From the NCBI GenBank assembly GCA_921293015.1, contig OV121093.1, positions 434,001 to 498,000 on the forward strand: 64,000 nucleotides of DNA, written 5' to 3'. Below, in pieces: positions 1 through 64,000 of the stretch (the first letter of the stretch is position 1; every line of letters starts with the position of its first letter). Source of the DNA: Phorcus lineatus (lineage: Eukaryota; Mollusca; Gastropoda; Trochida; Trochidae). The notes below the pieces were generated by a model. It saw nothing but the letters and a program-made list of their open reading frames with translations, was not told where the DNA came from and searched no databases. The position numbers and the translations under genes are program-made.

Positions 1-1309
1 AGTAGAGTACGTACCAGTTAAAGCATCCAGCAGTAGAGTACGTACCAGTTAAAGCATACAGCAGTAGAGTACGTAACAGTTAAAGCATAAAGCAGTAGAG
101 TACGTGCCAGTTAAAGCATAAAGCAGTAGAGTACGTAGCAGTTAAAGCATACAGCAGTAGAGTACGTACCAGTTAAAGCATATAGCAGTAGAGTACGTAC
201 CAGTTAAAGCATACAGCAGTAGAGTACGTACCAGTTAAAGCATAAAGCAGTAGAGTACGTACCAGTTAAAGCATAAAGCAGTAGAGTACGTACCAGTTAA
301 AGCATATAGCAGTAGAGTACGTAGCAGTTAAAGCATAAAGCAGTAGAGTACGTACCAGTTAAAGCATACAGCAGTAGAGTACGTACCAGTTAAAGCATAT
401 AGCAGTAGAGTACGTGCCAGTTAAAGCATACAGCAGTAGAGTACGTACCAGTTAAAGCATACAGCAGTAGAGTACGTACCAGTTAAAGCATATAGCAGTA
501 GAGTACGTGCCAGTTAAAGCATAAAGCAGTAGAGTACGTACCAGTTAAAGCATAAAGCAGTAGAGTACGTAACAGTTAAAGCATAAAGCAGTAGAGTACG
601 TACCAGTTAAAGCATAAAGCAGTAGAGTACGTATCAGTTAAAGCATAAAGCAGTAGAGTACGTATCAGTTAAAGCATACAGCAGTAGAGTACGTAACAGT
701 TAAAGCATAAAGCAGTAGAGTCCGTATCAGTTAAAGCATACAGCAGTAGAGTACGTACCAGTTAAAGCATAAAGCAGTAGAGTACGTATCAGTTAAAGCA
801 TAAAGCAGTAGAGTACGTAACAGTTAAAGCATAAAGCAGTAGAGTACGTATCAGTTAAAGCATAAAGCAGTAGAGTACGTAACAGTTAAAGCATAAAGCA
901 GTAGAGTACGTAACAGTTAAAGCATAAAGCAGTAGAGTACGTATCAGTTAAAGCATAAAGCATTAGAGTACGTGCCAGTTAAAGCATAAAGCAGTAGAGT
1001 ACGTACCAGTTAAAGCATAAAGCAGTAGAGTACGTACCAGTTAAAGCATACAGCAGTAGAGTACGTACCAGTTAAAGCATTAAGCAGTAGAGTACGTACC
1101 AGTTAAAGCATAAAGCAGTAGAGTACGTACCAGTTAAAGCATATAGCAGTAGAGTACGTAGCAGTTAAAGCATAAAGCAGTAGAGTACGTACCAGTTAAA
1201 GCATACAGCAGTAGAGTACGTACCAGTTAAAGCATATAGCAGTAGAGTACGTACCAGTTAAAGCATAAAGCAGTAGAGTACGTAGCAGTTAAAGCATACA
1301 GCAGTAGAG

Positions 1310-2741
1310 TACGTACCAGTTAAAGCATATAGCAGTAGAGTACGTGCCAGTTAAAGCATAAAGCAGTAGAGTACGTACCAGTTAAAGCATAAAGCAGTAG
1401 AGTACGTAACAGTTAAAGCATAAAGCAGTAGAGTACGTACCAGTTAAAGCATAAAGCAGTAGAGTACGTACCAGTTAAAGCATAAAGCAGTAGAGTACGT
1501 ACCAGTTAAAGCATCCAGCAGTAGAGTACGTACCAGTTAAAGCATACAGCAGTAGAGTACGTAACAGTTAAAGCATAAAGCAGTAGAGTACGTGCCAGTT
1601 AAAGCATAAAGCAGTAGAGTACGTACCAGTTAAAGCATAAAGCAGTAGAGTACGTACCAGTTAAAGCATACAGCAGTAGAGTACGTAACAGTTAAAGCAT
1701 AAAGAAGTAGAGTACGTGCCAGTTAAAGCATACAGCAGTAGAGTACGTACCAGTTAAAGCATATAGCAGTAGAGTACGTAACAGTTAAAGCATAAAGAAG
1801 TAGAGTACGTGCCAGTTAAAGTATAAAGCAGTAGAGTACGTACCAGTTAAAGCATAAAGCAGTAGAGTACGTACCAGTTAAAGCATAAAGCAGTAGAGTA
1901 CGTACCAGTTAAAGCATACAGCAGTAGAGTACGTACCAGTTAAAGCATACAGCAGTAGAGTACGTAACAGTTAAAGCATAAAGCAGTAGAGTACGTGCCA
2001 GTTAAAGCATAAAGCAGTAGAGTACGTAGCAGTTAAAGCATACAGCAGTAGAGTACGTACCAGTTAAAGCATATAGCAGTAGAGTACGTACCAGTTAAAG
2101 CATACAGCAGTAGAGTACGTACCAGTTAAAGCATAAAGCAGTAGAGTACGTACCAGTTAAAGCATAAAGCAGTAGAGTACGTACCAGTTAAAGCATAAAG
2201 CAGTAGAGTACGTGCCAGTTAAAGCATAAAGCAGTAGAGTACGTACCAGTTAAAGCATAAAGCAGTAGAGTACGTACCAGTTAAAGCATACAGCAGTAGA
2301 GTACGTAACAGTTAAAGCATAAAGAAGTAGAGTACGTGCCAGTTAAAGTATAAAGCAGTAGAGTACGTACCAGTTAAAGCATAAAGCAGTAGAGTACGTA
2401 CCAGTTAAAGCATACAGCAGTAGAGTACGTAACAGTTAAAGCATAAAGAAGTAGAGTACGTGCCAGTTAAAGTATAAAGCAGTAGAGTACGTACCAGTTA
2501 AAGCATAAAGCAGTAGAGTACGTACCAGTTAAAGCATAAAGCAGTAGAGTACGTAACAGTTAAAGCATAAAGCAGTAGAGTACGTAGCAGTTAAAGCATA
2601 TAGCAGTAGAGTACGTGCCAGTTAAAGCATAAAGCAGTAGAGTACGTACCAGTTAAAGCATAAAGCAGTAGAGTACGTACCAGTTAAAGCATAAAGCAGT
2701 AGAGTACGTACCAGTTAAAGTATAAAGCAGTAGAGTACGTA
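1310..2741 (+). repeat. 1.4-kb direct repeat, copy 1 (partner at +6,420)
   Basis: Bases from about 1310 to 2741 match 7730-9161 at a constant offset of 6,420 bp. I noticed a single difference (catacagc against catccagc near 1918/8338). The stretch is rich in GTAAC followed by AAAGAAGTAG (C31A) and GTGCC monomers with C24T. It lies inside the 3.1-kb repeat and so also recurs at +13,288. Confidence 0.9.
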
Positions 2742-2852
2742 CCAGTTAAAGCATACAGCAGTAGAGTACGTAGCAGTTAAAGCATAAAGCAGTAGAGTAC
2801 GTACCAGTTAAAGCATACAGCAGTAGAGTACGTACCAGTTAAAGCATATAGC

Positions 2853-3577
2853 TGTAGAGTACGTGCCAGTTAAAGCATAAAGCAGTAGAGTACGTAGCAG
2901 TTAAAGCATACAGCAGTAGAGTACGTACCAGTTAAAGCATATAGCAGTAGAGTACGTGCCAGTTAAAGCATAAAGCAGTAGAGTACGTACCAGTTAAAGC
3001 ATAAAGCAGTAGAGTACGTGCCGCATAAAGCAGTAGAGTACGTACCAGTTAAAGTATAAAGCAGTAGAGTACGTACCAGTTAAAGCATACAGCAGTAGAG
3101 TACGTAGCAGTTAAAGCATACAGCAGTAGAGTACGTACCAGTTAAAGCATAAAACAGTAGAGTACGTAACAGTTAAAGCATAAAGCAGTAGAGTACGTAC
3201 CAGTTAAAGCATATAGCTGTAGAGTACGTGCCAGTTAAAGCATAAAGCAGTAGAGTACGTAGCAGTTAAAGCATACAGCAGTAGAGTACGTACCAGTTAA
3301 AGCATATAGCAGTAGAGTACGTGCCAGTTAAAGCATAAAGCAGTAGAGTACGTACCAGTTAAAGCATAAAGCAGTAGAGTACGTGCCGCATAAAGCAGTA
3401 GAGTACGTACCAGTTAAAGTATAAAGCAGTAGAGTACGTACCAGTTAAAGCATACAGCAGTAGAGTACGTAGCAGTTAAAGCATACAGCAGTAGAGTACG
3501 TACCAGTTAAAGCATAAAACAGTAGAGTACGTACCAGTTAAAGCATAAAGCAGTAGAGTACGTACCAGTTAAAGCAT
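2853..3577 (+). repeat. 365-bp HOR, two tandem copies
   Basis: A unit of eleven 31-bp monomers plus one 24-bp monomer is repeated in tandem. The A1T monomer (gcTgtag) lies at 2853 and 3218, and the short monomer at 3021 and 3386, each 365 bp apart. The same pair appears at 16141/16506 as part of the +13,288 repeat, and in the 29-kb region (short monomers at 29118 and 29483, A1T at 28950 and 29315). Confidence 0.9.
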
Positions 3578-5550
3578 ACAGCAGTAGAGTACGTACCAGT
3601 TAAAGCATATAGCAGTAGAGTACGTATCAGTTAAAGCATAAAGCAGTAGAGTACGTATCAGTTAAAGCATAAAGCAGTAGAGTACGTATCAGTTAAAGCA
3701 TAAAGCAGTAGAGTACGTATCAGTTAAAGCATACAGCAGTAGAGTACGTAACAGTTAAAGCATAAAGCAGTAGAGTACGTATCAGTTAAAGCATAAAGCA
3801 GTAGAGTACGTACCAGTTAAAGCATATAGCAGTAGAGTACGTAGCAGTTAAAGCATAAAGCAGTAGAGTACGTATCAGTTAAAGTATAAAGCAGTAGAGT
3901 ACGTACCAGTTAAAGCATAAAGCAGTAGAGTACGTACCAGTTAAAGCATATAGCAGTAGAGTACGTGCCAGTTAAAGCATAAAGCAGTAGAGTACGTACC
4001 AGTTAAAGCATGTAGCAGTAGAGTACGTACCAGTTAAAGCATACAGCAGTAGAGTACGTACCAGTTAAAGCATAAAGCAGTAGAGTACGTACCAGTTAAA
4101 GCATAAAGCAGTAGAGTACGTACCAGTTAAAGTATAAAGCAGTAGAGTACGTACCAGTTAAAGCATACAGCAGTAGAATACGTAGCAGTTAAAGCATAAA
4201 GCAGTAGAGTACGTACCAGTTAAAGCATACAGCAGTAGAGTACGTAGCAGTTAAAGCATAAAGCAGTAGAGTACGTACCAGTTAAAGCATACAGCAGTAG
4301 AGTACGTACCAGTTAAAGCATATAGCAGTAGAGTACGTGCCAGTTAAAGCATACAGCAGTAGAGTACGTAGCAGTTAAAGCATACAGCAGTAGAGTACGT
4401 ACCAGTTAAAGCATAAAACAGTAGAGTACGTACCAGTTAAAGCATAAAGCAGTAGAGTACGTACCAGTTAAAGCATCCAGCAGTAGAGTACGTACCAGTT
4501 AAAGCATACAGCAGTAGAGTACGTAACAGTTAAAGCATAAAGCAGTAGAGTACGTGCCAGTTAAAGCATAAAGCAGTAGAGTACGTACCAGTTAAAGCAT
4601 AAAGCAGTAGAGTACGTACCAGTTAAAGCATACAGCAGTAGAGTACGTAACAGTTAAAGCATAAAGAAGTAGAGTACGTGCCAGTTAAAGTATAAAGCAG
4701 TAGAGTACGTACCAGTTAAAGCATAAAGCAGTAGAGTACGTACCAGTTAAAGCATAAAGCAGTAGAGTACGTAACAGTTAAAGCATAAAGCAGTAGAGTA
4801 CGTAGCAGTTAAAGCATATAGCAGTAGAGTACGTGCCAGTTAAAGCATAAAGCAGTAGAGTACGTACCAGTTAAAGCATAAAGCAGTAGAGTACGTACCA
4901 GTTAAAGCATAAAGCAGTAGAGTACGTACCAGTTAAAGTATAAAGCAGTAGAGTACGTACCAGTTAAAGCATACAGCAGTAGAGTACGTAGCAGTTAAAG
5001 CATAAAGCAGTAGAGTACGTAACAGTTAAAGCATACAGCAGTAGAGTACGTACCAGTTAAAGCATATAGCTGTAGAGTACGTGCCAGTTAAAGCATAAAG
5101 CAGTAGAGTACGTAGCAGTTAAAGCATACAGCAGTAGAGTACGTACCAGTTAAAGCATATAGCAGTAGAGTACGTGCCAGTTAAAGCATAAAGCAGTAGA
5201 GTACGTACCAGTTAAAGCATAAAGCAGTAGAGTACGTGCCGCATAAAGCAGTAGAGTACGTACCAGTTAAAGCATAAAGCAGTAGAGTACGTACCAGTTA
5301 AAGCATACAGCAGTAGAGTACGTACCAGTTAAAGCATACAGCAGTAGAGTACGTACCAGTTAAAGCATAAAACAGTAGAGTACGTACCAGTTAAAGCATA
5401 AAGCAGTAGAGTACGTACCAGTTAAAGCATAAAGCAGTAGAGTACGTACCAGTTAAAGCATACAGCAGTAGAGTACGTAACAGTTAAAGCATAAAGCAGT
5501 AGAGTACGTGCCAGTTAAAGCATAAAGCAGTAGAGTACGTACCAGTTAAA

Positions 5551-6093
5551 TCATACAGCAGTAGAGTACGTACCAGTTAAAGCATACAGCAGTAGAGTAC
5601 GTACCAGTTAAAGCATAAAGCAGTAGAGTACGTATCAGTTAAAGCATAAAGCAGTAGAGTACGTAACAGTTAAAGCATAAAGCAGTAGAGTACGTATCAG
5701 TTAAAGCATAAAGCAGTAGAGTACGTACCAGTTAAAGCATATAGCAGTAGAGTACGTAGCAGTTAAAGCATAAAGCAGTAGAGTACGTAGCAGTTAAAGT
5801 ATAAAGCAGTAGAGTACGTACCAGTTAAAGCATAAAGCAGTAGAGTACGTACCAGTTAAAGCATATAGCAGTAGAGTACGTGCCAGTTAAAGCATAAAGC
5901 AGTAGAGTACGTACCAGTTAAAGCATGTAGCAGTAGAGTACGTACCAGTTAAAGCATACAGCAGTAGAGTACGTACCAGTTAAAGCATAAAGCAGTAGAG
6001 TACGTACCAGTTAAAGCATAAAGCAGTAGAGTACGTACCAGTTAAAGTATAAAGCAGTAGAGTACGTACCAGTTAAAGCATACAGCAGTAGAA
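5551..6093 (+). repeat. Short cassette, form S1
   Basis: This is measured from the A22T base (ttaaaTcat) at 5551 to the G7A base (tagaAtacg) at 6093, 542 bp. Compared with the long cassette it lacks nine consecutive monomers, from the GTACC-catacagc before the GTAAC/GAGTCC pair through the GTATC-catacagc monomer. It therefore has no GAGTCC/CAATT monomer. The next long-range copy is at 19180-19722, 13,629 bp away. Confidence 0.85.
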
Positions 6094-7729
6094 TACGTAG
6101 CAGTTAAAGCATAAAGCAGTAGAGTACGTACCAGTTAAAGCATACAGCAGTAGAGTACGTAGCAGTTAAAGCATAAAGCAGTAGAGTACGTACCAGTTAA
6201 AGCATACAGCAGTAGAGTACGTACCAGTTAAAGCATATAGCAGTAGAGTACGTGCCAGTTAAAGCATACAGCAGTAGAGTACGTAGCAGTTAAAGCATAC
6301 AGCAGTAGAGTACGTACCAGTTAAAGCATAAAGCAGTAGAGTACGTACCAGTTAAAGCATACAGCAGTAGAGTACGTAACAGTTAAAGCATAAAGAAGTA
6401 GAGTACGTGCCAGTTAAAGTATAAAGCAGTAGAGTACGTACCAGTTAAAGCATAAAGCAGTAGAGTACGTACCAGTTAAAGCATAAAGCAGTAGAGTACG
6501 TAACAGTTAAAGCATAAAGCAGTAGAGTACGTAGCAGTTAAAGCATATAGCAGTAGAGTACGTGCCAGTTAAAGCATAAAGCAGTAGAGTACGTACCAGT
6601 TAAAGCATACAGCAGTAGAGTACGTACCAGTTAAAGCATAAAGCAGTAGAGTACGTACCAGTTAAAGTATAAAGCAGTAGAGTACGTACCAGTTAAAGCA
6701 TACAGCAGTAGAGTACGTAGCAGTTAAAGCATAAAGCAGTAGAGTACGTAACAGTTAAAGCATACAGCAGTAGAGTACGTACCAGTTAAAGCATATAGCT
6801 GTAGAGTACGTGCCAGTTAAAGCATAAAGCAGTAGAGTACGTAGCAGTTAAAGCATACAGCAGTAGAGTACGTACCAGTTAAAGCATATAGCAGTAGAGT
6901 ACGTGCCAGTTAAAGCATAAAGCAGTAGAGTACGTACCAGTTAAAGCATAAAGCAGTAGAGTACGTGCCGCATAAAGCAGTAGAGTACGTACCAGTTAAA
7001 GTATAAAGCAGTAGAGTACGTACCAGTTAAAGCATACAGCAGTAGAGTACGTAGCAGTTAAAGCATACAGCAGTAGAGTACGTACCAGTTAAAGCATAAA
7101 ACAGTAGAGTACGTACCAGTTAAAGCATAAAGCAGTAGAGTACGTACCAGTTAAAGCATAAAGCAGTAGAGTACGTACCAGTTAAAGCATACAGCAGTAG
7201 AGTACGTAACAGTTAAAGCATAAAGCAGTAGAGTACGTGCCAGTTAAAGCATAAAGCAGTAGAGTACGTACCAGTTAAATCATACAGCAGTAGAGTACGT
7301 ACCAGTTAAAGCATACAGCAGTAGAGTACGTACCAGTTAAAGCATAAAGCAGTAGAGTACGTATCAGTTAAAGCATAAAGCAGTAGAGTACGTACCAGTT
7401 AAAGCATACAGCAGTAGAGTACGTAACAGTTAAAGCATAAAGCAGTAGAGTCCGTATCAATTAAAGCATAAAGCAGTAGAGTACGTAACAGTTAAAGCAT
7501 ACAGCAGTAGAGTACGTACCAGTTAAAGCATATAGCAGTAGAGTACGTATCAGTTAAAGCATAAAGCAGTAGAGTACGTAGCAGTTAAAGCATAAAGCAG
7601 TAGAGTACGTATCAGTTAAAGCATAAAGCAGTAGAGTACGTATCAGTTAAAGCATACAGCAGTAGAGTACGTAACAGTTAAAGCATAAAGCAGTAGAGTA
7701 CGTATCAGTTAAAGCATAAAGCAGTAGAG

Positions 7730-13717: not shown

Positions 13718-16700
13718 ACAGCAGTAGAGTACGTAGCAGTTAAAGCATACAGCAGTAGAGTACGTACCAGTTAAAGCATATAGCAGTAGAGTACGTGCCA
13801 GTTAAAGCATAAAGCAGTAGAGTACGTACCAGTTAAAGCATAAAGCAGTAGAGTACGTAACAGTTAAAGCATAAAGCAGTAGAGTACGTACCAGTTAAAG
13901 CATAAAGCAGTAGAGTACGTATCAGTTAAAGCATAAAGCAGTAGAGTACGTATCAGTTAAAGCATACAGCAGTAGAGTACGTAACAGTTAAAGCATAAAG
14001 CAGTAGAGTCCGTATCAGTTAAAGCATACAGCAGTAGAGTACGTAACAGTTAAAGCATAAAGCAGTAGAGTACGTATCAGTTAAAGCATAAAGCAGTAGA
14101 GTACGTAACAGTTAAAGCATAAAGCAGTAGAGTACGTATCAGTTAAAGCATAAAGCAGTAGAGTACGTAACAGTTAAAGCATAAAGCAGTAGAGTACGTA
14201 ACAGTTAAAGCATAAAGCAGTAGAGTACGTATCAGTTAAAGCATAAAGCATTAGAGTACGTGCCAGTTAAAGCATAAAGCAGTAGAGTACGTACCAGTTA
14301 AAGCATAAAGCAGTAGAGTACGTACCAGTTAAAGCATACAGCAGTAGAGTACGTACCAGTTAAAGCATTAAGCAGTAGAGTACGTACCAGTTAAAGCATA
14401 AAGCAGTAGAGTACGTACCAGTTAAAGCATATAGCAGTAGAGTACGTAGCAGTTAAAGCATAAAGCAGTAGAGTACGTACCAGTTAAAGCATACAGCAGT
14501 AGAGTACGTACCAGTTAAAGCATATAGCAGTAGAGTACGTGCCAGTTAAAGCATACAGCAGTAGAGTACGTAGCAGTTAAAGCATACAGCAGTAGAGTAC
14601 GTACCAGTTAAAGCATATAGCAGTAGAGTACGTGCCAGTTAAAGCATAAAGCAGTAGAGTACGTACCAGTTAAAGCATAAAGCAGTAGAGTACGTACCAG
14701 TTAAAGCATAAAGCAGTAGAGTACGTACCAGTTAAAGCATAAAGCAGTAGAGTACGTACCAGTTAAAGCATAAAGCAGTAGAGTACGTACCAGTTAAAGC
14801 ATCCAGCAGTAGAGTACGTACCAGTTAAAGCATACAGCAGTAGAGTACGTAACAGTTAAAGCATAAAGCAGTAGAGTACGTGCCAGTTAAAGCATAAAGC
14901 AGTAGAGTACGTACCAGTTAAAGCATAAAGCAGTAGAGTACGTACCAGTTAAAGCATACAGCAGTAGAGTACGTAACAGTTAAAGCATAAAGAAGTAGAG
15001 TACGTGCCAGTTAAAGCATACAGCAGTAGAGTACGTACCAGTTAAAGCATATAGCAGTAGAGTACGTAACAGTTAAAGCATAAAGAAGTAGAGTACGTGC
15101 CAGTTAAAGTATAAAGCAGTAGAGTACGTACCAGTTAAAGCATAAAGCAGTAGAGTACGTACCAGTTAAAGCATAAAGCAGTAGAGTACGTACCAGTTAA
15201 AGCATCCAGCAGTAGAGTACGTACCAGTTAAAGCATACAGCAGTAGAGTACGTAACAGTTAAAGCATAAAGCAGTAGAGTACGTGCCAGTTAAAGCATAA
15301 AGCAGTAGAGTACGTAGCAGTTAAAGCATACAGCAGTAGAGTACGTACCAGTTAAAGCATATAGCAGTAGAGTACGTACCAGTTAAAGCATACAGCAGTA
15401 GAGTACGTACCAGTTAAAGCATAAAGCAGTAGAGTACGTACCAGTTAAAGCATAAAGCAGTAGAGTACGTACCAGTTAAAGCATAAAGCAGTAGAGTACG
15501 TGCCAGTTAAAGCATAAAGCAGTAGAGTACGTACCAGTTAAAGCATAAAGCAGTAGAGTACGTACCAGTTAAAGCATACAGCAGTAGAGTACGTAACAGT
15601 TAAAGCATAAAGAAGTAGAGTACGTGCCAGTTAAAGTATAAAGCAGTAGAGTACGTACCAGTTAAAGCATAAAGCAGTAGAGTACGTACCAGTTAAAGCA
15701 TACAGCAGTAGAGTACGTAACAGTTAAAGCATAAAGAAGTAGAGTACGTGCCAGTTAAAGCATACAGCAGTAGAGTACGTACCAGTTAAAGCATACAGCA
15801 GTAGAGTACGTACCAGTTAAAGCATAAAGCAGTAGAGTACGTAACAGTTAAAGCATACAGCAGTAGAGTACGTACCAGTTAAAGCATATAGCAGTAGAGT
15901 ACGTGCCAGTTAAAGCATAAAGCAGTAGAGTACGTACCAGTTAAAGCATAAAGCAGTAGAGTACGTACCAGTTAAAGCATAAAGCAGTAGAGTACGTACC
16001 AGTTAAAGTATAAAGCAGTAGAGTACGTACCAGTTAAAGCATACAGCAGTAGAGTACGTAGCAGTTAAAGCATAAAGCAGTAGAGTACGTAACAGTTAAA
16101 GCATACAGCAGTAGAGTACGTACCAGTTAAAGCATATAGCTGTAGAGTACGTGCCAGTTAAAGCATAAAGCAGTAGAGTACGTAGCAGTTAAAGCATACA
16201 GCAGTAGAGTACGTACCAGTTAAAGCATATAGCAGTAGAGTACGTGCCAGTTAAAGCATAAAGCAGTAGAGTACGTACCAGTTAAAGCATAAAGCAGTAG
16301 AGTACGTGCCGCATAAAGCAGTAGAGTACGTACCAGTTAAAGTATAAAGCAGTAGAGTACGTACCAGTTAAAGCATACAGCAGTAGAGTACGTAGCAGTT
16401 AAAGCATACAGCAGTAGAGTACGTACCAGTTAAAGCATAAAACAGTAGAGTACGTAACAGTTAAAGCATAAAGCAGTAGAGTACGTACCAGTTAAAGCAT
16501 ATAGCTGTAGAGTACGTGCCAGTTAAAGCATAAAGCAGTAGAGTACGTAGCAGTTAAAGCATACAGCAGTAGAGTACGTACCAGTTAAAGCATATAGCAG
16601 TAGAGTACGTGCCAGTTAAAGCATAAAGCAGTAGAGTACGTACCAGTTAAAGCATAAAGCAGTAGAGTACGTGCCGCATAAAGCAGTAGAGTACGTACCA

Positions 16701-16865
16701 GTTAAAGTATAAAGCAGTAGAGTACGTACCAGTTAAAGCATACAGCAGTAGAGTACGTAGCAGTTAAAGCATACAGCAGTAGAGTACGTACCAGTTAAAG
16801 CATAAAACAGTAGAGTACGTACCAGTTAAAGCATAAAGCAGTAGAGTACGTACCAGTTAAAGCAT
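13718..16865 (+). repeat. 3.1-kb direct repeat, copy 2 (partner at -13,288)
   Basis: This is the downstream copy of 430-3577, carrying the same ordered set of rare monomer variants, including both 24-bp monomers and both A1T monomers. On its left it abuts a truncated cassette that stops matching its relatives near 13,600. On its right it passes into the tandem 6.3-kb super-units. It looks like a block of left-edge material copied between cassette blocks, so the 6.3-kb periodicity is interrupted from about 12.7 to 16.8 kb. Confidence 0.88.
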
Positions 16866-16985
16866 CCAGCAGTAGAGTACGTACCAGTTAAAGCATACAG
16901 CAGTAGAGTACGTAACAGTTAAAGCATAAAGCAGTAGAGTACGTGCCAGTTAAAGCATAAAGCAGTAGAGTACGTACCAGTTAAA

Positions 16986-17807
16986 TCATACAGCAGTAGA
17001 GTACGTACCAGTTAAAGCATACAGCAGTAGAGTACGTACCAGTTAATGCATAAAGCAGTAGAGTACGTATCAGTTAAAGCATAAAGCAGTAGAGTACGTA
17101 ACAGTTAAAGCATACAGCAGTAGAGTACGTAACAGTTAAAGCATAAAGCAGTAGAGTACGTAACAGTTAAAGCATACAGCAGTAGAGTACGTACCAGTTA
17201 AAGCATACAGCAGTAGAGTACGTACCAGTTAAAGCATATAGCAGTAGAGTACGTATCAGTTAAAGCATAAAGCAGTAGAGTACGTATCAGTTAAAGCATA
17301 AAGCAGTAGAGTACGTATCAGTTAAAGCATAAAGCAGTAGAGTACGTATCAGTTAAAGCATACAGCAGTAGAGTACGTAACAGTTAAAGCATAAAGCAGT
17401 AGAGTACGTATCAGTTAAAGCATAAAGCAGTAGAGTACGTACCAGTTAAAGCATATAGCAGTAGAGTACGTAGCAGTTAAAGCATAAAGCAGTAGAGTAC
17501 GTATCAGTTAAAGTATAAAGCAGTAGAGTACGTACCAGTTAAAGCATAAAGCAGTAGAGTACGTACCAGTTAAAGCATATAGCAGTAGAGTACGTTCCAG
17601 TTAAAGCATAAAGCAGTAGAGTACGTACCAGTTAAAGCATGTAGCAGTAGAGTACGTACCAGTTAAAGCATACAGCAGTAGAGTACGTACCAGTTAAAGC
17701 ATAAAGCAGTAGAGTACGTACCAGTTAAAGCATAAAGCAGTAGAGTACGTACCAGTTAAAGTATAAAGCAGTAGAGTACGTACCAGTTAAAGCATACAGC
17801 AGTAGAA
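16986..17807 (+). repeat. Long cassette, TTAATG haplotype
   Basis: An 821-bp cassette with the TTAATG marker (A22T also present at its start) at 17047. It has GTAAC in place of the GAGTCC/CAATT monomer, and a private GTTCC at 17596. A closely similar stretch lies 4,016 bp upstream (12780-13600), which is truncated before its G7A monomer. Confidence 0.85.
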
Positions 17808-19179
17808 TACGTAGCAGTTAAAGCATAAAGCAGTAGAGTACGTACCAGTTAAAGCATACAGCAGTAGAGTACGTAGCAGTTAAAGCATAAAGCAGTAGAG
17901 TACGTACCAGTTAAAGCATACAGCAGTAGAGTACGTACCAGTTAAAGCATATAGCAGTAGAGTACGTGCCAGTTAAAGCATACAGCAGTAGAGTACGTAG
18001 CAGTTAAAGCATACAGCAGTAGAGTACGTACCAGTTAAAGCATAAAACAGTAGAGTACGTACCAGTTAAAGCATAAAGCAGTAGAGTACGTACCAGTTAA
18101 AGCATCCAGCAGTAGAGTACGTACCAGTTAAAGCATACAGCAGTAGAGTACGTAACAGTTAAAGCATAAAGCAGTAGAGTACGTACCAGTTAAAGCATAA
18201 AGCAGTAGAGTACGTACCAGTTAAAGCATAAAGCAGTAGAGTACGTACCAGTTAAAGCATACAGCAGTAGAGTACGTAACAGTTAAAGCATAAAGCAGTA
18301 GAGTACGTGCCAGTTAAAGTATAAAGCAGTAGAGTACGTACCAGTTAAAGCATAAAGCAGTAGAGTACGTACCAGTTAAAGCATAAAGCAGTAGAGTACG
18401 TAACAGTTAAAGCATAAAGCAGTAGAGTACGTAGCAGTTAAAGCATATAGCAGTAGAGTACGTGCCAGTTAAAGCATAAAGCAGTAGAGTACGTACCAGT
18501 TAAAGCATAAAGCAGTAGAGTACGTACCAGTTAAAGCATAAAGCAGTAGAGTACGTACCAGTTAAAGTATAAAGCAGTAGAGTACGTACCAGTTAAAGCA
18601 TACAGCAGTAGAGTACGTACCAGTTAAAGCATAAAGCAGTAGAGTACGTAACAGTTAAAGCATACAGCAGTAGAGTACGTACCAGTTAAAGCATATAGCT
18701 GTAGAGTACGTGCCAGTTAAAGCATAAAGCAGTAGAGTACGTAGCAGTTAAAGCATACAGCAGTAGAGTACGTACCAGTTAAAGCATATAGCAGTAGAGT
18801 ACGTGCCAGTTAAAGCATAAAGCAGTAGAGTACGTACCAGTTAAAGCATAAAGCAGTAGAGTACGTGCCGCATAAAGCAGTAGAGTACGTACCAGTTAAA
18901 GTATAAAGCAGTAGAGTACGTACCAGTTAAAGCATACAGCAGTAGAGTACGTAGCAGTTAAAGCATACAGCAGTAGAGTACGTACCAGTTAAAGCATAAA
19001 GCAGTAGAGTACGTACCAGTTAAAGCATAAAGCAGTAGAGTACGTACCAGTTAAAGCATAAAGCAGTAGAGTACGTACCAGTTAAAGCATACAGCAGTAG
19101 AGTACGTAACAGTTAAAGCATAAAGCAGTAGAGTACGTGCCAGTTAAAGCATAAAGCAGTAGAGTACGTACCAGTTAAA

Positions 19180-19722
19180 TCATACAGCAGTAGAGTACGT
19201 ACCAGTTAAAGCATACAGCAGTAGAGTACGTACCAGTTAAAGCATAAAGCAGTAGAGTACGTATCAGTTAAAGCATAAAGCAGTAGAGTACGTAACAGTT
19301 AAAGCATAAAGCAGTAGAGTACGTATCAGTTAAAGCATAAAGCAGTAGAGTACGTACCAGTTAAAGCATATAGCAGTAGAGTACGTAGCAGTTAAAGCAT
19401 AAAGCAGTAGAGTACGTAGCAGTTAAAGTATAAAGCAGTAGAGTACGTACCAGTTAAAGCATAAAGCAGTAGAGTACGTACCAGTTAAAGCATATAGCAG
19501 TAGAGTACGTGCCAGTTAAAGCATAAAGCAGTAGAGTACGTACCAGTTAAAGCATGTAGCAGTAGAGTACGTACCAGTTAAAGCATACAGCAGTAGAGTA
19601 CGTACCAGTTAAAGCATAAAGCAGTAGAGTACGTACCAGTTAAAGCATAAAGCAGTAGAGTACGTACCAGTTAAAGCATACAGCAGTAGAGTACGTACCA
19701 GTTAAAGCATACAGCAGTAGAA
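19180..19722 (+). repeat. Short cassette, form S1
   Basis: 542 bp between marker bases, with the same nine-monomer loss and junction (GTATC-cataaagc then GTAAC-cataaagc) as at 5551-6093. It is the middle cassette of super-HOR copy A. Confidence 0.85.
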
Positions 19723-20908
19723 TACGTAGCAGTTAAAGCATAAAGCAGTAGAGTACGTACCAGTTAAAGCATACAGCAGTAGAGTACGTAGCAGTTAAAG
19801 CATAAAGCAGTAGAGTACGTACCAGTTAAAGCATACAGCAGTAGAGTACGTACCAGTTAAAGCATATAGCAGTAGAGTACGTGCCAGTTAAAGCATACAG
19901 CAGTAGAGTACGTAGCAGTTAAAGCATACAGCAGTAGAGTACGTACCAGTTAAAGCATAAAGCAGTAGAGTACGTACCAGTTAAAGCATACAGCAGTAGA
20001 GTACGTAACAGTTAAAGCATAAAGAAGTAGAGTACGTGCCAGTTAAAGTATAAAGCAGTAGAGTACGTACCAGTTAAAGCATAAAGCAGTAGAGTACGTA
20101 CCAGTTAAAGCATAAAGCAGTAGAGTACGTAACAGTTAAAGCATAAAGCAGTAGAGTACGTAGCAGTTAAAGCATATAGCAGTAGAGTACGTGCCAGTTA
20201 AAGCATAAAGCAGTAGAGTACGTACCAGTTAAAGCATAAAGCAGTAGAGTACGTACCAGTTAAAGCATAAAGCAGTAGAGTACGTACCAGTTAAAGTATA
20301 AAGCAGTAGAGTACGTACCAGTTAAAGCATACAGCAGTAGAGTACGTAGCAGTTAAAGCATAAAGCAGTAGAGTACGTAACAGTTAAAGCATACAGCAGT
20401 AGAGTACGTACCAGTTAAAGCATATAGCTGTAGAGTACGTGCCAGTTAAAGCATAAAGCAGTAGAGTACGTAGCAGTTAAAGCATACAGCAGTAGAGTAC
20501 GTACCAGTTAAAGCATATAGCAGTAGAGTACGTGCCAGTTAAAGCATAAAGCAGTAGAGTACGTACCAGTTAAAGCATAAAGCAGTAGAGTACGTGCCGC
20601 ATAAAGCAGTAGAGTACGTACCAGTTAAAGTATAAAGCAGTAGAGTACGTACCAGTTAAAGCATACAGCAGTAGAGTACGTAGCAGTTAAAGCATACAGC
20701 AGTAGAGTACGTACCAGTTAAAGCATAAAACAGTAGAGTACGTACCAGTTAAAGCATAAAGCAGTAGAGTACGTACCAGTTAAAGCATAAAGCAGTAGAG
20801 TACGTACCAGTTAAAGCATACAGCAGTAGAGTACGTAACAGTTAAAGCATAAAGCAGTAGAGTACGTGCCAGTTAAAGCATAAAGCAGTAGAGTACGTAC
20901 CAGTTAAA

Positions 20909-21730
20909 TCATACAGCAGTAGAGTACGTACCAGTTAAAGCATACAGCAGTAGAGTACGTACCAGTTAAAGCATAAAGCAGTAGAGTACGTATCAGTTAA
21001 AGCATAAAGCAGTAGAGTACGTACCAGTTAAAGCATAAAGCAGTAGAGTACGTAACAGTTAAAGCATAAAGCAGTAGAGTCCGTATCAATTAAAGCATAA
21101 AGCAGTAGAGTACGTAACAGTTAAAGCATACAGCAGTAGAGTACGTACCAGTTAAAGCATATAGCAGTAGAGTACGTATCAGTTAAAGCATAAAGCAGTA
21201 GAGTACGTAGCAGTTAAAGCATAAAGCAGTAGAGTACGTATCAGTTAAAGCATAAAGCAGTAGAGTACGTATCAGTTAAAGCATACAGCAGTAGAGTACG
21301 TAACAGTTAAAGCATAAAGCAGTAGAGTACGTATCAGTTAAAGCATAAAGCAGTAGAGTACGTACCAGTTAAAGCATATAGCAGTAGAGTACGTAGCAGT
21401 TAAAGCATAAAGCAGTAGAGTACGTATCAGTTAAAGTATAAAGCAGTAGAGTACGTACCAGTTAAAGCATAAAGCAGTAGAGTACGTACCAGTTAAAGCA
21501 TATAGCAGTAGAGTACGTGCCAGTTAAAGCATAAAGCAGTAGAGTACGTACCAGTTAAAGCATGTAGCAGTAGAGTACGTACCAGTTAAAGCATACAGCA
21601 GTAGAGTACGTACCAGTTAAAGCATAAAGCAGTAGAGTACGTACCAGTTAAAGCATAAAGCAGTAGAGTACGTACCAGTTAAAGTATAAAGCAGTAGAGT
21701 ACGTACCAGTTAAAGCATACAGCAGTAGAA
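20909..21730 (+). repeat. Long cassette, GAGTCC/CAATT haplotype
   Basis: 821 bp, with the double-mutant monomer at 21081 (172 bp after A22T) and catGTagc near 21564. It is the third cassette of super-HOR copy A; its partner is at 27236-28057. Confidence 0.85.
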
Positions 21731-23312
21731 TACGTAGCAGTTAAAGCATAAAGCAGTAGAGTACGTACCAGTTAAAGCATACAGCAGTAGAGTACGTAGC
21801 AGTTAAAGCATAAAGCAGTAGAGTACGTACCAGTTAAAGCATACAGCAGTAGAGTACGTACCAGTTAAAGCATATAGCAGTAGAGTACGTGCCAGTTAAA
21901 GCATACAGCAGTAGAGTACGTAGCAGTTAAAGCATACAGCAGTAGAGTACGTACCAGTTAAAGCATAAAACAGTAGAGTACGTACCAGTTAAAGCATAAA
22001 GCAGTAGAGTACGTACCAGTTAAAGCATCCAGCAGTAGAGTACGTACCAGTTAAAGCATACAGCAGTAGAGTACGTAACAGTTAAAGCATAAAGCAGTAG
22101 AGTACGTGCCAGTTAAAGCATAAAGCAGTAGAGTACGTACCAGTTAAAGCATAAAGCAGTAGAGTACGTACCAGTTAAAGCATACAGCAGTAGAGTACGT
22201 AACAGTTAAAGCATAAAGAAGTAGAGTACGTGCCAGTTAAAGTATAAAGCAGTAGAGTACGTACCAGTTAAAGCATAAAGCAGTAGAGTACGTACCAGTT
22301 AAAGCATAAAGCAGTAGAGTACGTAACAGTTAAAGCATAAAGCAGTAGAGTACGTAGCAGTTAAAGCATATAGCAGTAGAGTACGTGCCAGTTAAAGCAT
22401 AAAGCAGTAGAGTACGTACCAGTTAAAGCATAAAGCAGTAGAGTACGTACCAGTTAAAGCATAAAGCAGTAGAGTACGTACCAGTTAAAGTATAAAGCAG
22501 TAGAGTACGTACCAGTTAAAGCATACAGCAGTAGAGTACGTAGCAGTTAAAGCATAAAGCAGTAGAGTACGTAACAGTTAAAGCATACAGCAGTAGAGTA
22601 CGTACCAGTTAAAGCATATAGCTGTAGAGTACGTGCCAGTTAAAGCATAAAGCAGTAGAGTACGTAGCAGTTAAAGCATACAGCAGTAGAGTACGTACCA
22701 GTTAAAGCATATAGCAGTAGAGTACGTGCCAGTTAAAGCATAAAGCAGTAGAGTACGTACCAGTTAAAGCATAAAGCAGTAGAGTACGTGCCGCATAAAG
22801 CAGTAGAGTACGTACCAGTTAAAGTATAAAGCAGTAGAGTACGTACCAGTTAAAGCATACAGCAGTAGAGTACGTAGCAGTTAAAGCATACAGCAGTAGA
22901 GTACGTACCAGTTAAAGCATAAAACAGTAGAGTACGTACCAGTTAAAGCATAAAGCAGTAGAGTACGTACCAGTTAAAGCATAAAGCAGTAGAGTACGTG
23001 CCGCATAAAGCAGTAGAGTACGTACCAGTTAAAGTATAAAGCAGTAGAGTACGTACCAGTTAAAGCATACAGCAGTAGAGTACGTAGCAGTTAAAGCATA
23101 CAGCAGTAGAGTACGTACCAGTTAAAGCATAAAACAGTAGAGTACGTACCAGTTAAAGCATAAAGCAGTAGAGTACGTACCAGTTAAAGCATCCAGCAGT
23201 AGAGTACGTACCAGTTAAAGCATACAGCAGTAGAGTACGTAACAGTTAAAGCATAAAGCAGTAGAGTACGTGCCAGTTAAAGCATAAAGCAGTAGAGTAC
23301 GTACCAGTTAAA

Positions 23313-24134
23313 TCATACAGCAGTAGAGTACGTACCAGTTAAAGCATACAGCAGTAGAGTACGTACCAGTTAATGCATAAAGCAGTAGAGTACGTATCAG
23401 TTAAAGCATAAAGCAGTAGAGTACGTAACAGTTAAAGCATACAGCAGTAGAGTACGTAACAGTTAAAGCATAAAGCAGTAGAGTACGTACCAGTTAAAGC
23501 ATACAGCAGTAGAGTACGTACCAGTTAAAGCATACAGCAGTAGAGTACGTACCAGTTAAAGCATATAGCAGTAGAGTACGTATCAGTTAAAGCATAAAGC
23601 AGTAGAGTACGTATCAGTTAAAGCATAAAGCAGTAGAGTACGTATCAGTTAAAGCATAAAGCAGTAGAGTACGTATCAGTTAAAGCATACAGCAGTAGAG
23701 TACGTAACAGTTAAAGCATAAAGCAGTAGAGTACGTATCAGTTAAAGCATAAAGCAGTAGAGTACGTACCAGTTAAAGCATATAGCAGTAGAGTACGTAG
23801 CAGTTAAAGCATAAAGCAGTAGAGTACGTATCAGTTAAAGTATAAAGCAGTAGAGTACGTACCAGTTAAAGCATAAAGCAGTAGAGTACGTACCAGTTAA
23901 AGCATATAGCAGTAGAGTACGTGCCAGTTAAAGCATAAAGCAGTAGAGTACGTACCAGTTAAAGCATATAGCAGTAGAGTACGTACCAGTTAAAGCATAC
24001 AGCAGTAGAGTACGTACCAGTTAAAGCATAAAGCAGTAGAGTACGTACCAGTTAAAGCATAAAGCAGTAGAGTACGTACCAGTTAAAGTATAAAGCAGTA
24101 GAGTACGTACCAGTTAAAGCATACAGCAGTAGAA
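23313..24134 (+). repeat. Long cassette, TTAATG haplotype
   Basis: The +6,327 partner of 16986-17807, with TTAATG at 23374. It differs in having GTACC for GTAAC near 23490, GTGCC for GTTCC, and catATagc where other copies have catGTagc. Confidence 0.85.
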
Positions 24135-25506
24135 TACGTAGCAGTTAAAGCATAAAGCAGTAGAGTACGTACCAGTTAAAGCATACAGCAGTAGAGTACG
24201 TAGCAGTTAAAGCATAAAGCAGTAGAGTACGTACCAGTTAAAGCATACAGCAGTAGAGTACGTACCAGTTAAAGCATATAGCAGTAGAGTACGTGCCAGT
24301 TAAAGCATACAGCAGTAGAGTACGTAGCAGTTAAAGCATACAGCAGTAGAGTACGTACCAGTTAAAGCATAAAACAGTAGAGTACGTACCAGTTAAAGCA
24401 TAAAGCAGTAGAGTACGTACCAGTTAAAGCATCCAGCAGTAGAGTACGTACCAGTTAAAGCATACAGCAGTAGAGTACGTAACAGTTAAAGCATAAAGCA
24501 GTAGAGTACGTGCCAGTTAAAGCATAAAGCAGTAGAGTACGTACCAGTTAAAGCATAAAGCAGTAGAGTACGTACCAGTTAAAGCATACAGCAGTAGAGT
24601 ACGTAACAGTTAAAGCATAAAGAAGTAGAGTACGTGCCAGTTAAAGTATAAAGCAGTAGAGTACGTACCAGTTAAAGCATAAAGCAGTAGAGTACGTACC
24701 AGTTAAAGCATAAAGCAGTAGAGTACGTAACAGTTAAAGCATAAAGCAGTAGAGTACGTAGCAGTTAAAGCATATAGCAGTAGAGTACGTACCAGTTAAA
24801 GCATAAAGCAGTAGAGTACGTACCAGTTAAAGCATAAAGCAGTAGAGTACGTACCAGTTAAAGCATAAAGCAGTAGAGTACGTACCAGTTAAAGTATAAA
24901 GCAGTAGAGTACGTACCAGTTAAAGCATACAGCAGTAGAGTACGTAGCAGTTAAAGCATAAAGCAGTAGAGTACGTAACAGTTAAAGCATACAGCAGTAG
25001 AGTACGTACCAGTTAAAGCATATAGCTGTAGAGTACGTGCCAGTTAAAGCATAAAGCAGTAGAGTACGTAGCAGTTAAAGCATACAGCAGTAGAGTACGT
25101 ACCAGTTAAAGCATATAGCAGTAGAGTACGTGCCAGTTAAAGCATAAAGCAGTAGAGTACGTACCAGTTAAAGCATAAAGCAGTAGAGTACGTGCCGCAT
25201 AAAGCAGTAGAGTACGTACCAGTTAAAGTATAAAGCAGTAGAGTACGTACCAGTTAAAGCATACAGCAGTAGAGTACGTAGCAGTTAAAGCATACAGCAG
25301 TAGAGTACGTACCAGTTAAAGCATAAAGCAGTAGAGTACGTACCAGTTAAAGCATAAAGCAGTAGAGTACGTACCAGTTAAAGCATAAAGCAGTAGAGTA
25401 CGTACCAGTTAAAGCATACAGCAGTAGAGTACGTAACAGTTAAAGCATAAAGCAGTAGAGTACGTGCCAGTTAAAGCATAAAGCAGTAGAGTACGTACCA
25501 GTTAAA

Positions 25507-26049
25507 TCATACAGCAGTAGAGTACGTACCAGTTAAAGCATACAGCAGTAGAGTACGTACCAGTTAAAGCATAAAGCAGTAGAGTACGTATCAGTTAAAG
25601 CATAAAGCAGTAGAGTACGTAACAGTTAAAGCATAAAGCAGTAGAGTACGTATCAGTTAAAGCATAAAGCAGTAGAGTACGTACCAGTTAAAGCATATAG
25701 CAGTAGAGTACGTAGCAGTTAAAGCATAAAGCAGTAGAGTACGTAGCAGTTAAAGTATAAAGCAGTAGAGTACGTACCAGTTAAAGCATAAAGCAGTAGA
25801 GTACGTACCAGTTAAAGCATATAGCAGTAGAGTACGTGCCAGTTAAAGCATAAAGCAGTAGAGTACGTACCAGTTAAAGCATGTAGCAGTAGAGTACGTA
25901 CCAGTTAAAGCATACAGCAGTAGAGTACGTACCAGTTAAAGCATAAAGCAGTAGAGTACGTACCAGTTAAAGCATAAAGCAGTAGAGTACGTACCAGTTA
26001 AAGTATAAAGCAGTAGAGTACGTACCAGTTAAAGCATACAGCAGTAGAA
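25507..26049 (+). repeat. Short cassette, form S1
   Basis: 542 bp; the +6,327 partner of 19180-19722 with the same nine-monomer deletion. Confidence 0.85.
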
Positions 26050-27235
26050 TACGTAGCAGTTAAAGCATAAAGCAGTAGAGTACGTACCAGTTAAAGCATA
26101 CAGCAGTAGAGTACGTAGCAGTTAAAGCATAAAGCAGTAGAGTACGTACCAGTTAAAGCATACAGCAGTAGAGTACGTACCAGTTAAAGCATATAGCAGT
26201 AGAGTACGTGCCAGTTAAAGCATACAGCAGTAGAGTACGTAGCAGTTAAAGCATACAGCAGTAGAGTACGTACCAGTTAAAGCATAAAGCAGTAGAGTAC
26301 GTACCAGTTAAAGCATACAGCAGTAGAGTACGTAACAGTTAAAGCATAAAGAAGTAGAGTACGTGCCAGTTAAAGTATAAAGCAGTAGAGTACGTACCAG
26401 TTAAAGCATAAAGCAGTAGAGTACGTACCAGTTAAAGCATATAGCAGTAGAGGACGTAACAGTTAAAGCATAAAGCAGTAGAGTACGTAGCAGTTAAAGC
26501 ATACAGCAGTAGAGTACGTGCCAGTTAAAGCATAAAGCAGTAGAGTACGTACCAGTTAAAGCATAAAGCAGTAGAGTACGTACCAGTTAAAGCATAAAGC
26601 AGTAGAGTACGTACCAGTTAAAGTATAAAGCAGTAGAGTACGTACCAGTTAAAGCATACAGCAGTAGAGTACGTAGCAGTTAAAGCATAAAGCAGTAGAG
26701 TACGTAACAGTTAAAGCATACAGCAGTAGAGTACGTACCAGTTAAAGCATATAGCTGTAGAGTACGTGCCAGTTAAAGCATAAAGCAGTAGAGTACGTAG
26801 CAGTTAAAGCATACAGCAGTAGAGTACGTACCAGTTAAAGCATATAGCAGTAGAGTACGTGCCAGTTAAAGCATAAAGCAGTAGAGTACGTACCAGTTAA
26901 AGCATAAAGCAGTAGAGTACGTGCCGCATAAAGCAGTAGAGTACGTACCAGTTAAAGTATAAAGCAGTAGAGTACGTACCAGTTAAAGCATACAGCAGTA
27001 GAGTACGTAGCAGTTAAAGCATACAGCAGTAGAGTACGTACCAGTTAAAGCATAAAACAGTAGAGTACGTACCAGTTAAAGCATAAAGCAGTAGAGTACG
27101 TACCAGTTAAAGCATAAAGCAGTAGAGTACGTACCAGTTAAAGCATACAGCAGTAGAGTACGTAACAGTTAAAGCATAAAGCAGTAGAGTACGTGCCAGT
27201 TAAAGCATAAAGCAGTAGAGTACGTACCAGTTAAA

Positions 27236-28057
27236 TCATACAGCAGTAGAGTACGTACCAGTTAAAGCATACAGCAGTAGAGTACGTACCAGTTAAAGCA
27301 TAAAGCAGTAGAGTACGTACCAGTTAAAGCATAAAGCAGTAGAGTACGTACCAGTTAAAGCATACAGCAGTAGAGTACGTAACAGTTAAAGCATAAAGCA
27401 GTAGAGTCCGTATCAATTAAAGCATAAAGCAGTAGAGTACGTAACAGTTAAAGCATACAGCAGTAGAGTACGTACCAGTTAAAGCATAAAGCAGTAGAGT
27501 ACGTATCAGTTAAAGCATAAAGCAGTAGAGTACGTAGCAGTTAAAGCATAAAGCAGTAGAGTACGTATCAGTTAAAGCATAAAGCAGTAGAGTACGTATC
27601 AGTTAAAGCATACAGCAGTAGAGTACGTAACAGTTAAAGCATAAAGCAGTAGAGTACGTATCAGTTAAAGCATAAAGCAGTAGAGTACGTACCAGTTAAA
27701 GCATATAGCAGTAGAGTACGTAGCAGTTAAAGCATAAAGCAGTAGAGTACGTATCAGTTAAAGTATAAAGCAGTAGAGTACGTACCAGTTAAAGCATAAA
27801 GCAGTAGAGTACGTACCAGTTAAAGCATATAGCAGTAGAGTACGTGCCAGTTAAAGCATAAAGCAGTAGAGTACGTACCAGTTAAAGCATGTAGCAGTAG
27901 AGTACGTACCAGTTAAAGCATACAGCAGTAGAGTACGTACCAGTTAAAGCATAAAGCAGTAGAGTACGTACCAGTTAAAGCATAAAGCAGTAGAGTACGT
28001 ACCAGTTAAAGCATAAAGCAGTAGAGTACGTACCAGTTAAAGCATACAGCAGTAGAA
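27236..28057 (+). repeat. Long cassette, GAGTCC/CAATT haplotype
   Basis: The +6,327 partner of 20909-21730; the double-mutant monomer is at 27408. The C24T monomer seen just before G7A in most copies is C24 here (gcataaagc near 28017). Confidence 0.85.
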
Positions 28058-41430: not shown

Positions 41431-42980
41431 GTACGTAGCAGTTAAAGCATACAGCAGTAGAGTACGTACCAGTTAAAGCATATAGCAGTAGAGTACGTGC
41501 CAGTTAAAGCATAAAGCAGTAGAGTACGTACCAGTTAAAGCATAAAGCAGTAGAGTACGTGCCAGTTAAAGCATAAAGCAGTAGAGTACGTACCAGTTAA
41601 AGTATAAAGCAGTAGAGTACGTACCAGTTAAAGCATACAGCAGTAGAGTACGTAGCAGTTAAAGCATAAAGCAGTAGAGTACGTACCAGTTAAAGCATAA
41701 AACAGTAGAGTACGTACCAGTTAAAGCATAAAGCAGTAGAGTACGTAGCAGTTAAAGCATACAGCAGTAGAGTACGTACCAGTTAAAGCATATAGCAGTA
41801 GAGTACGTGCCAGTTAAAGCATAAAGCAGTAGAGTACGTACCAGTTAAAGCATAAAGCAGTAGAGTACGTGCCAGTTAAAGCATAAAGCAGTAGAGTACG
41901 TACCAGTTAAAGTATAAAGCAGTAGAGTACGTACCAGTTAAAGCATACAGCAGTAGAGTACGTAGCAGTTAAAGCATACAGCAGTAGAGTACGTACCAGT
42001 TAAAGCATAAAACAGTAGAGTACGTACCAGTTAAAGCATAAAGCAGTAGAGTACGTAGCAGTTAAAGCATACAGCAGTAGAGTACGTACCAGTTAAAGCA
42101 TATAGCAGTAGAGTACGTGCCAGTTAAAGCATAAAGCAGTAGAGTACGTACCAGTTAAAGCATAAAGCAGTAGAGTACGTGCCAGTTAAAGCATAAAGCA
42201 GTAGAGTACGTACCAGTTAAAGTATAAAGCAGTAGAGTACGTACCAGTTAAAGCATACAGCAGTAGAGTACGTACCAGTTAAAGCATAAAGCAGTAGAGT
42301 ACGTACCAGTTAAAGCATAAAACAGTAGAGTACGTACCAGTTAAAGCATAAAGCAGTAGAGTACGTAGCAGTTAAAGCATACAGCAGTAGAGTACGTACC
42401 AGTTAAAGCATATAGCAGTAGAGTACGTGCCAGTTAAAGCATAAAGCAGTAGAGTACGTACCAGTTAAAGCATAAAGCAGTAGAGTACGTGCCAGTTAAA
42501 GCATAAAGCAGTAGAGTACGTACCAGTTAAAGTATAAAGCAGTAGAGTACGTACCAGTTAAAGCATACAGCAGTAGAGTACGTAGCAGTTAAAGCATACA
42601 GCAGTAGAGTACGTACCAGTTAAAGCATAAAACAGTAGAGTACGTACCAGTTAAAGCATAAAGCAGTAGAGTACGTAGCAGTTAAAGCATACAGCAGTAG
42701 AGTACGTACCAGTTAAAGCATATAGCAGTAGAGTACGTGCCAGTTAAAGCATAAAGCAGTAGAGTACGTACCAGTTAAAGCATAAAGCAGTAGAGTACGT
42801 ACCAGTTAAAGCATAAAGCAGTAGAGTACGTACCAGTTAAAGTATAAAGCAGTAGAGTACGTACCAGTTAAAGCATACAGCAGTAGAGTACGTAGCAGTT
42901 AAAGCATACAGCAGTAGAGTACGTACCAGTTAAAGCATAAAACAGTAGAGTACGTACCAGTTAAAGCATAAAGCAGTAGA
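41431..42980 (+). repeat. 310-bp HOR (10-mer), five tandem copies
   Basis: The G30A monomer (ataaaAc) recurs at 41702, 42012, 42322, 42632 and 42942, exactly 310 bp apart. Each unit opens with GTAGC-catacagc, GTACC-catatagc and GTGCC, and contains the full-length GTGCC monomer that is 24 bp long in the left domain, followed by the GTACC monomer with C24T. Small differences between copies are swaps of GTAGC/GTACC and catacagc/cataaagc. It is the longest regular HOR run in the window. Confidence 0.93.
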
Positions 42981-59620: not shown

Positions 59621-59860
59621 CAGTAGAGTACGTACCAGTTAAAGCATACAGCAGTAGAGTACGTACCAGTTAAAGCATAAAGCAGTAGAGTACGTACCAG
59701 TTAAAGCATAAAGCAGTAGAGTACGTACCAGTTAAAGCATCCAGCAGTAGAGTACGTACCAGTTAAAGCATACAGCAGTAGAGTACGTAACAGTTAAAGC
59801 ATAAAGCAGTAGAGTACGTGCCAGTTAAAGCATAAAGCAGTAGAGTACGTACCAGTTAAA

Positions 59861-62600: not shown

Positions 62601-62836
62601 AGAGTACGTACCAGTTAAAGCATACAGCAGTAGAGTACGTACCAGTTAAAGCATAAAACAGTAGAGTACGTACCAGTTAAAGCATAAAGCAGTAGAGTAC
62701 GTACCAGTTAAAGCATCCAGCAGTAGAGTACGTACCAGTTAAAGCATACAGCAGTAGAGTACGTAACAGTTAAAGCATAAAGCAGTAGAGTACGTGCCAG
62801 TTAAAGCATAAAGCAGTAGAGTACGTACCAGTTAAA

Positions 62837-63658
62837 TCATACAGCAGTAGAGTACGTACCAGTTAAAGCATACAGCAGTAGAGTACGTACCAGTTAAAGC
62901 ATAAAGCAGTAGAGTACGTATCAGTTAAAGCATAAAGCAGTAGAGTACGTACCAGTTAAAGCATACAGCAGTAGAGTACGTACCAGTTAAAGCATAAAGC
63001 AGTAGAGTCCGTATCAGTTAAAGCATAAAGCAGTAGAGTACGTACCAGTTAAAGCATACAGCAGTAGAGTACGTACCATTTAAAGCATATAGCAGTAGAG
63101 TACGTATCAGTTAAAGCATAAAGCAGTAGAGTACGTAGCAGTTAAAGCATAAAGCAGTAGAGTACGTATCAGTTAAAGCATAAAGCAGTAGAGTACGTAT
63201 CAGTTAAAGCATACAGCAGTAGAGTACGTAACAGTTAAAGCATAAAGCAGTAGAGTACGTACCAGTTAAAGCATAAAGCAGTAGAGTACGTACCAGTTAA
63301 AGCATATAGCAGTAGAGTACGTAGCAGTTAAAGCATAAAGCAGTAGAGTACGTATCAGTTAAAGTATAAAGCAGTAGAGTACGTACCAGTTAAAGCATAA
63401 AGCAGTAGAGTACGTACCAGTTAAAGCATATAGCAGTAGAGTACGTGCCAGTTAAAGCATAAAGCAGTAGAGTACGTACCAGTTAAAGCATGTAGCAGTA
63501 GAGTACGTACCAGTTAAAGCATACAGCAGTAGAGTACGTACCAGTTAAAGCATAAAGCAGTAGAGTACGTACCAGTTAAAGCATAAAGCAGTAGAGTACG
63601 TACCAGTTAAAGTATAAAGCAGTAGAGTACGTACCAGTTAAAGCATACAGCAGTAGAA
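62837..63658 (+). repeat. Long cassette, G17T haplotype, CAATT absent
   Basis: 821 bp at +2,976 from 59861. The GAGTCC change is present at 63009 but is followed by CAGTT rather than CAATT, separating two changes that are linked in most other cassettes. G17T is at 63079. Confidence 0.86.
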
Positions 63659-64000
63659 TACGTAGCAGTTAAAGCATAAAGCAGTAGAGTACGTACCAGT
63701 TAAAGCATACAGCAGTAGAGTACGTAGCAGTTAAAGCATAAAGCAGTAGAGTACGTACCAGTTAAAGCATAAAGCAGTAGAGTACGTACCAGTTAAAGTA
63801 TATAGCAGTAGAGTACGTGCCAGTTAAAGCATACAGCAGTAGAGTACGTAGCAGTTAAAGCATACAGCAGTAGAGTACGTACCAGTTAAAGCATAAAACA
63901 GTAGAGTACGTACCAGTTAAAGCATAAAGCAGTAGAGTACGTACCAGTTAAAGCATCCAGCAGTAGAGTACGTACCAGTTAAAGCATAAAGCAGTAGAGT

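Follow-up and report, generated by a model that had tools for sequence, protein, structure and literature searches.

The unit of human alpha satellite is 171 bp long. As described in PMC8122249, its largest HOR contains 34 units, and minisatellite arrays average 0.5–30 kb. Hierarchical organisation of shorter units has three precedents in published accounts. The 0.8–1 kb monomers of deer satellite I are built of a 31-bp subrepeat (PMC7288315, PMC2760882), carrot CentDc forms HORs of four 39–40-bp monomers (PMC8259371), and in Chionographis japonica the 23/28-bp units of the CENH3 satellite Chio1/Chio2 form an HOR cluster (PMC10264360). Given these accounts, the statement in a preliminary description of the DNA analysed here, that a hierarchy is unusual for units of this length, is not supported. 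In Chamaelirium, HORs of the 60-bp Chama unit are reported to be maintained over hundreds of kilobases (PMC12722358). Centromeric tandem repeats with AT-rich units of 29 or ~30 bp are described for chromosomes 1, 2, 6 and 7 of Trypanosoma brucei (PMC1868937), in arrays reported to be much larger than first estimated (PMC3292466).

Here, we analysed a stretch of 64,000 nucleotides, referred to below as the window, which is filled by a tandem array of a 31-bp unit. With cervid/bovid satellite I (bovine 1.715) the array shares a 31-bp basic unit, which in deer is arranged in higher-order monomers of ~0.8–1 kb. However, deer satellite I has 54% GC in the table rows of PMC7288315, compared with 39% in the window; judged by composition, a kinship is unlikely. 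CentDc resembles the array in that short units form an HOR, but as described this HOR typically contains four units (~159 bp), whereas 10 of the 25 block spacings determined here span 62–84 units. Likeness to Chio, as it is described, extends to the shortness of the unit, the presence of a still shorter variant formed by deletion, an HOR cluster and an 8-bp dyad pairing neighbouring units, although Chio has other unit lengths and mixed orientations and the present array a single one. The 9-bp motif described as common to Chio and Chama has 0 occurrences on either strand of the window.

The T. brucei repeats, compared by description (PMC1868937), likewise have an AT-rich tandem unit of ~30 bp; they are 66% AT in two table rows and degenerate on chromosome 1, against 31 bp and 61% AT in the window. 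Because the T. brucei arrays are described as much larger than first estimated, size is no distinction between them and the present array. As reported for human alpha satellite (PMC8122249), adjacent units are more divergent than successive blocks. The longer blocks of the window exceed, in number of units, those comparators for which a figure is given (4 in CentDc, ~20 in deer satellite I and at most 34 in alpha satellite); in base pairs their size (1.9–2.6 kb) is ordinary. Alpha satellite further differs in its 171-bp unit and in HORs of at most 34 units, and its sequence was compared at the CENP-B box alone.

Results

Array and unit composition

TRF gave one main row for the whole window (1–64000), with 2069.3 copies of period 31, a match rate of 93% and an indel rate of 0%. 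Its 12 short, overlapping rows with period 24 are local re-readings of the 31-bp array. The array keeps a single orientation throughout, has no interruptions and extends past both window ends, so that its size is at least 64 kb. Segmentation produced 2,068 complete units, of which 2,047 measure 31 bp and 21 measure 24 bp. The 39 bases left over at the right window edge were excluded from later unit counts. Distances between 9-base anchors were multiples of 31, with exceptions only at the 24-bp units. The complete units belong to 40 distinct types, of which six are singletons, and adjacent units are ~93.7% identical. GC content is ~39% (AT 61%), with a composition that is nearly flat along the window and an almost constant strand skew. 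Coordinates of the array and its main features are collected in Table 1.

Table 1. Positions of the array and of its main features in the window
Feature	Position	Strand	Basis
31-bp tandem array, consensus AGTAGAGTACGTACCAGTTAAAGCATAAAGC	1..64000	+	TRF main row, segmentation, anchor distances
24-bp unit, first of 21 identical (7-bp deletion)	3008..3031	+	Segmentation list
Super-block partial copy, 135 units	3552..7722	+	Unit alignment
Super-block copy 1, 205 units, 6,327 bp	16630..22956	+	Ungapped unit alignment to copy 2
Super-block copy 2, 205 units, directly adjoins copy 1	22957..29283	+	Ungapped unit alignment
Three consecutive HOR blocks, 62 / 65 / 78 units (1,915 / 2,008 / 2,404 bp)	17522..23848	+	Anchor spacing
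310-bp (10-unit) cassette, four tandem copies starting at 41704, 42014, 42324 and 42634	41704..42943	+	Cassette search

Invariant positions of the monomer numbered 13, compared with 12.0 expected when 25 derived alleles are placed randomly; no selective constraint on the 31-bp unit was shown. The consensus unit contains one CG (positions 10–11), which is intact in 2,047 of 2,047 31-bp units; the observed/expected ratio of CpG is 0.88, and the derived alleles comprise 8 transitions and 17 transversions, without an excess of transitions. With regard to host methylation, these data hint at a genome without strong CpG decay, with the proviso that the alleles are few and that recent copying could mask decay. 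By eye, consensus positions 18–31 contain the near-duplicate 7-mers TTAAAGC and ATAAAGC, and 31 equals 24 + 7.

The 24-bp units are letter-for-letter identical and lack the same 7 bases. All 21 are preceded by a unit of type 'a', and in 16 cases the five-unit context is identical as well; the simplest reading is one deletion that was spread via block copying. Inspection by eye also showed that the deletion removes AGTTAAA, a loss that differs from simple slippage from one of the above 7-mers to the other. These units are restricted to the left ~39 kb of the window. A change of dialect is seen at ~38000–41000, between the last 24-bp unit, starting at 38859, and the 310-bp cassettes, of which 11 copies were found, all right of 41.7 kb. 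The 24-bp units on the left and the cassettes on the right suggest one array with two amplification histories.

Nested and irregular block organisation

Recurring words of 10, 15 and 20 units include 91.6%, 81.1% and 68.2% of the units, respectively. By comparison, 20 shuffles of unit order placed 0% of units in recurring words of any of these lengths, and 20 first-order Markov strings that kept the neighbour frequencies placed means of 0.9%, 0% and 0%. The longest exact recurrence of unit order covers 67 units. The two adjoining super-block copies differ in 15 of 205 units and at 16 nucleotides, corresponding to 99.75% identity with a denominator of 6,355 that scores every unit as 31 bp (true length, 6,327), and the partial copy is 99.74% identical to stretches starting at 17181 and 23508. 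Of 666 block pairs, the 45 longest showed identities of 99.1–99.9%, in agreement with the high homogeneity proposed earlier, and block copies are in this sample more alike than adjacent units (93.7%). As a long head-to-tail array of one unit in which blocks are more alike than neighbours, the window qualifies as satellite DNA with block-level (higher-order) organisation.

Block lengths were followed with an anchor of 11 units, tolerating at most two differing units, whose 26 occurrences gave 25 spacings. Between 17.5 and 30.3 kb the spacings were 62-65-78 and then 62-65-83 units, and blocks of 62 + 65 + 78 units sum to one super-block period. Over the whole window, 10 of the 25 spacings were 62–84 units (1.9–2.6 kb), nine were shorter and six longer, with a range of 13–208. 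Tandem copies of the cassette agree within one unit, the search having allowed at most one differing unit. When unit order was matched with itself at shifts of 1–1199 units, the best match was 18% (shift 205), compared with 9.4% by chance. Regular HOR organisation like that of alpha satellite was rejected, because one period is not kept: spacings vary from 13 to 208 units and the best shift matches 18%. The nested levels of the preliminary description, namely the 31-bp monomer, the 310-bp cassette, HOR-like blocks and the 205-unit super-block, were all recovered. The hierarchy is real yet irregular: block copies and truncated blocks form a mosaic, with no single regular HOR.

Base changes between block copies

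Three or more homologues within good blocks were available for 1,594 of the 2,068 units, and 1,503 of these had a 70% majority type. Of the 1,503 units, 61 deviated from the majority of their homologues. The deviant belonged to a type with two or more occurrences in 57 of 61 cases, and 52 of 61 had turned into a type established elsewhere, two types (five units) found only among deviants being set aside; a random single mutation would hit an established type 6.5% of the time (over 1,486 units). Among the 69 changed nucleotides, 47 were changed toward the monomer consensus, 13 away from it and 9 in neither direction, whereas random mutation is expected to place 1.2% of changes toward the consensus. 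The sign test of 47 versus 13 gave 1.2e-5, an optimistic P-value because block copies have inherited some of the deviants in common. If units exchanged bases without bias, counts toward and away from the consensus should be equal, and the 47:13 excess disagrees with this prediction. Frequencies of the changed base were 0.62 in adjacent units and 0.59 in the whole array, and local templating of base changes was not seen.

All three of these features, that is, the prevalence of types seen at least twice or established elsewhere, the direction of base changes and the lack of preference for adjacent units, also fit the possibility that part of the fine structure is an assembly artefact, with rare variants overwritten by the common base through consensus over-correction and block copies perhaps collapsed or misjoined. 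We regard this as a real possibility, somewhat short of an even chance. Over-correction at the base level cannot make the block order, the 24-bp variant or the tandem pair of 205 units, and biased gene conversion with random donors predicts an identical base-level pattern. The excess toward the consensus reflects either biased homogenisation or over-correction in the assembly, two readings that sequence does not separate. An artefact of this kind would be compatible with a satellite, a centromere or a VNTR.

Searches in sequence collections and literature

A coding minisatellite was rejected, the longest stop-to-stop frame wholly inside the window having 61 codons. Rfam gave no match in positions 1–6000, the stretch scanned. 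BLAST with the low-complexity filter on matched neither 3 kb of the window to plasmids nor 6 kb of it to phages, and for these parts a plasmid or phage repeat was rejected. Exact motif matches occurred in viral contigs (seven) and prokaryote contigs (one); in these eight loci the best 31-mer agreed with the consensus at 22 of 31 positions and the next-best 31-mers at no more than 19 of 31 (among the three best per strand), so that the matches are isolated and due to chance. Twelve monomer strings were absent from the main texts of 5.39 million openly licensed PMC papers, where phrase searches for 31-bp satellites, monomers or tandem repeats found no matching report and a search by combined terms led to a single paper, on human cells. 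Within these main texts and the sequence collections searched (plasmids and phages for the parts given above, viral and prokaryote contigs for motifs), the array is unrecognised, as previously proposed. It may represent an undescribed satellite family, with deer satellite I and the T. brucei repeats compared by description only.

Discussion

The window contains a 31-bp array with a small variant alphabet, block copies in conserved register and a 24-bp variant of a single sequence. We consider it very probable that this is satellite DNA from a eukaryotic chromosome, in an array that is young and under active homogenisation. The terms eukaryotic and chromosomal are based on the size of the array and on the lack of matches in the collections searched for plasmids, phages, viruses and prokaryotes, which may not include the genome from which the window comes. 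In the proposed origin, a 31-bp unit would have diversified into ~40 variants, and strings of variants would then have been copied as blocks of 10, ~60–80 and 205 units. Nested copying at several scales would generate the hierarchy. Such copying would take place in homology-dependent events that keep the 31-bp register, which may be unequal sister-chromatid exchange or break-induced re-replication. The host would be eukaryotic, and the copying probably recent and at a heterochromatic, possibly centromeric, position.

Outside the 24-bp units the register is kept and no part-units occur at block junctions, as expected if misaligned units or blocks were exchanged by homology rather than by end joining. 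Extra homology at block breakpoints was not shown: facing units at 35 junctions, including several copies of one event, differ on average by 1.66 and 1.83 bases, compared with 1.86 bases for random non-identical unit pairs without the 24-bp unit and 2.03 with this unit scored as 9. The 47:13 excess toward the consensus counts against the proposed origin, as unbiased exchange does not predict it. A further point against this origin is that the assembly could hold collapsed or over-corrected repeats.

A functional centromere core would carry CENP-A/CENH3 on the array, and its block turnover would be the usual centromere-driven homogenisation. In the accounts available, CENH3-bound Chama arrays are homogeneous, single-orientation HORs without inserted elements (PMC12722358), CENH3 is enriched on satellites with units of 23/28 bp in Chio (PMC10264360) and 60 bp in Chama (PMC12722358), and three Vicia faba satellites of 44–50 bp are termed centromeric (PMC5895790). 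Moreover, the unit contains an 8-bp palindrome through which adjacent units can pair as a hairpin in a folded dimer, comparable with the description of Chio (PMC10264360). However, no more than 1,182 of the 2,068 units carry this palindrome intact, and 9.6% of shuffled 31-mers contain an 8-bp palindrome; on these two counts, the palindrome as a selected feature is unsupported. The CENP-B box is absent, with at best 5 of 9 essential bases on the + strand and 6 of 9 on the − strand. Many centromeres have no CENP-B box, and arrays similar to this one also occur in subtelomeric regions, in knobs of heterochromatin and on sex chromosomes. A centromeric role is plausible, and we hold a functional core to be possible, at slightly under even probability.

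About evenly balanced is the probability of a non-centromeric heterochromatin block or large VNTR, located at a subtelomere, knob or sex chromosome, in which the same block copying would proceed without a kinetochore. Structure alone cannot tell such a block from a centromere, and irregular block lengths with many nested duplications fit VNTR-like growth as well. On the other hand, telomere motifs of three types, sought as two-copy runs, occur on neither strand of the window, and an uninterrupted length of at least 64 kb is large for a VNTR, given the average of 0.5–30 kb for minisatellite arrays (PMC8122249).

A more specific combination, an undescribed centromeric satellite of 31-bp units with unusually long multi-level blocks of 60–80 units, in which majority-ward homogenisation of single bases, with donors from the whole array instead of adjacent units, outpaces mutation, appears improbable. 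If true, it would give a direct record of biased conversion within a satellite. A possibly undescribed family may also supply a chromosome marker for the host. Moreover, provided that raw reads confirm the base differences, the small and readable variant alphabet would offer a clean test bed for block duplication versus conversion versus mutation.
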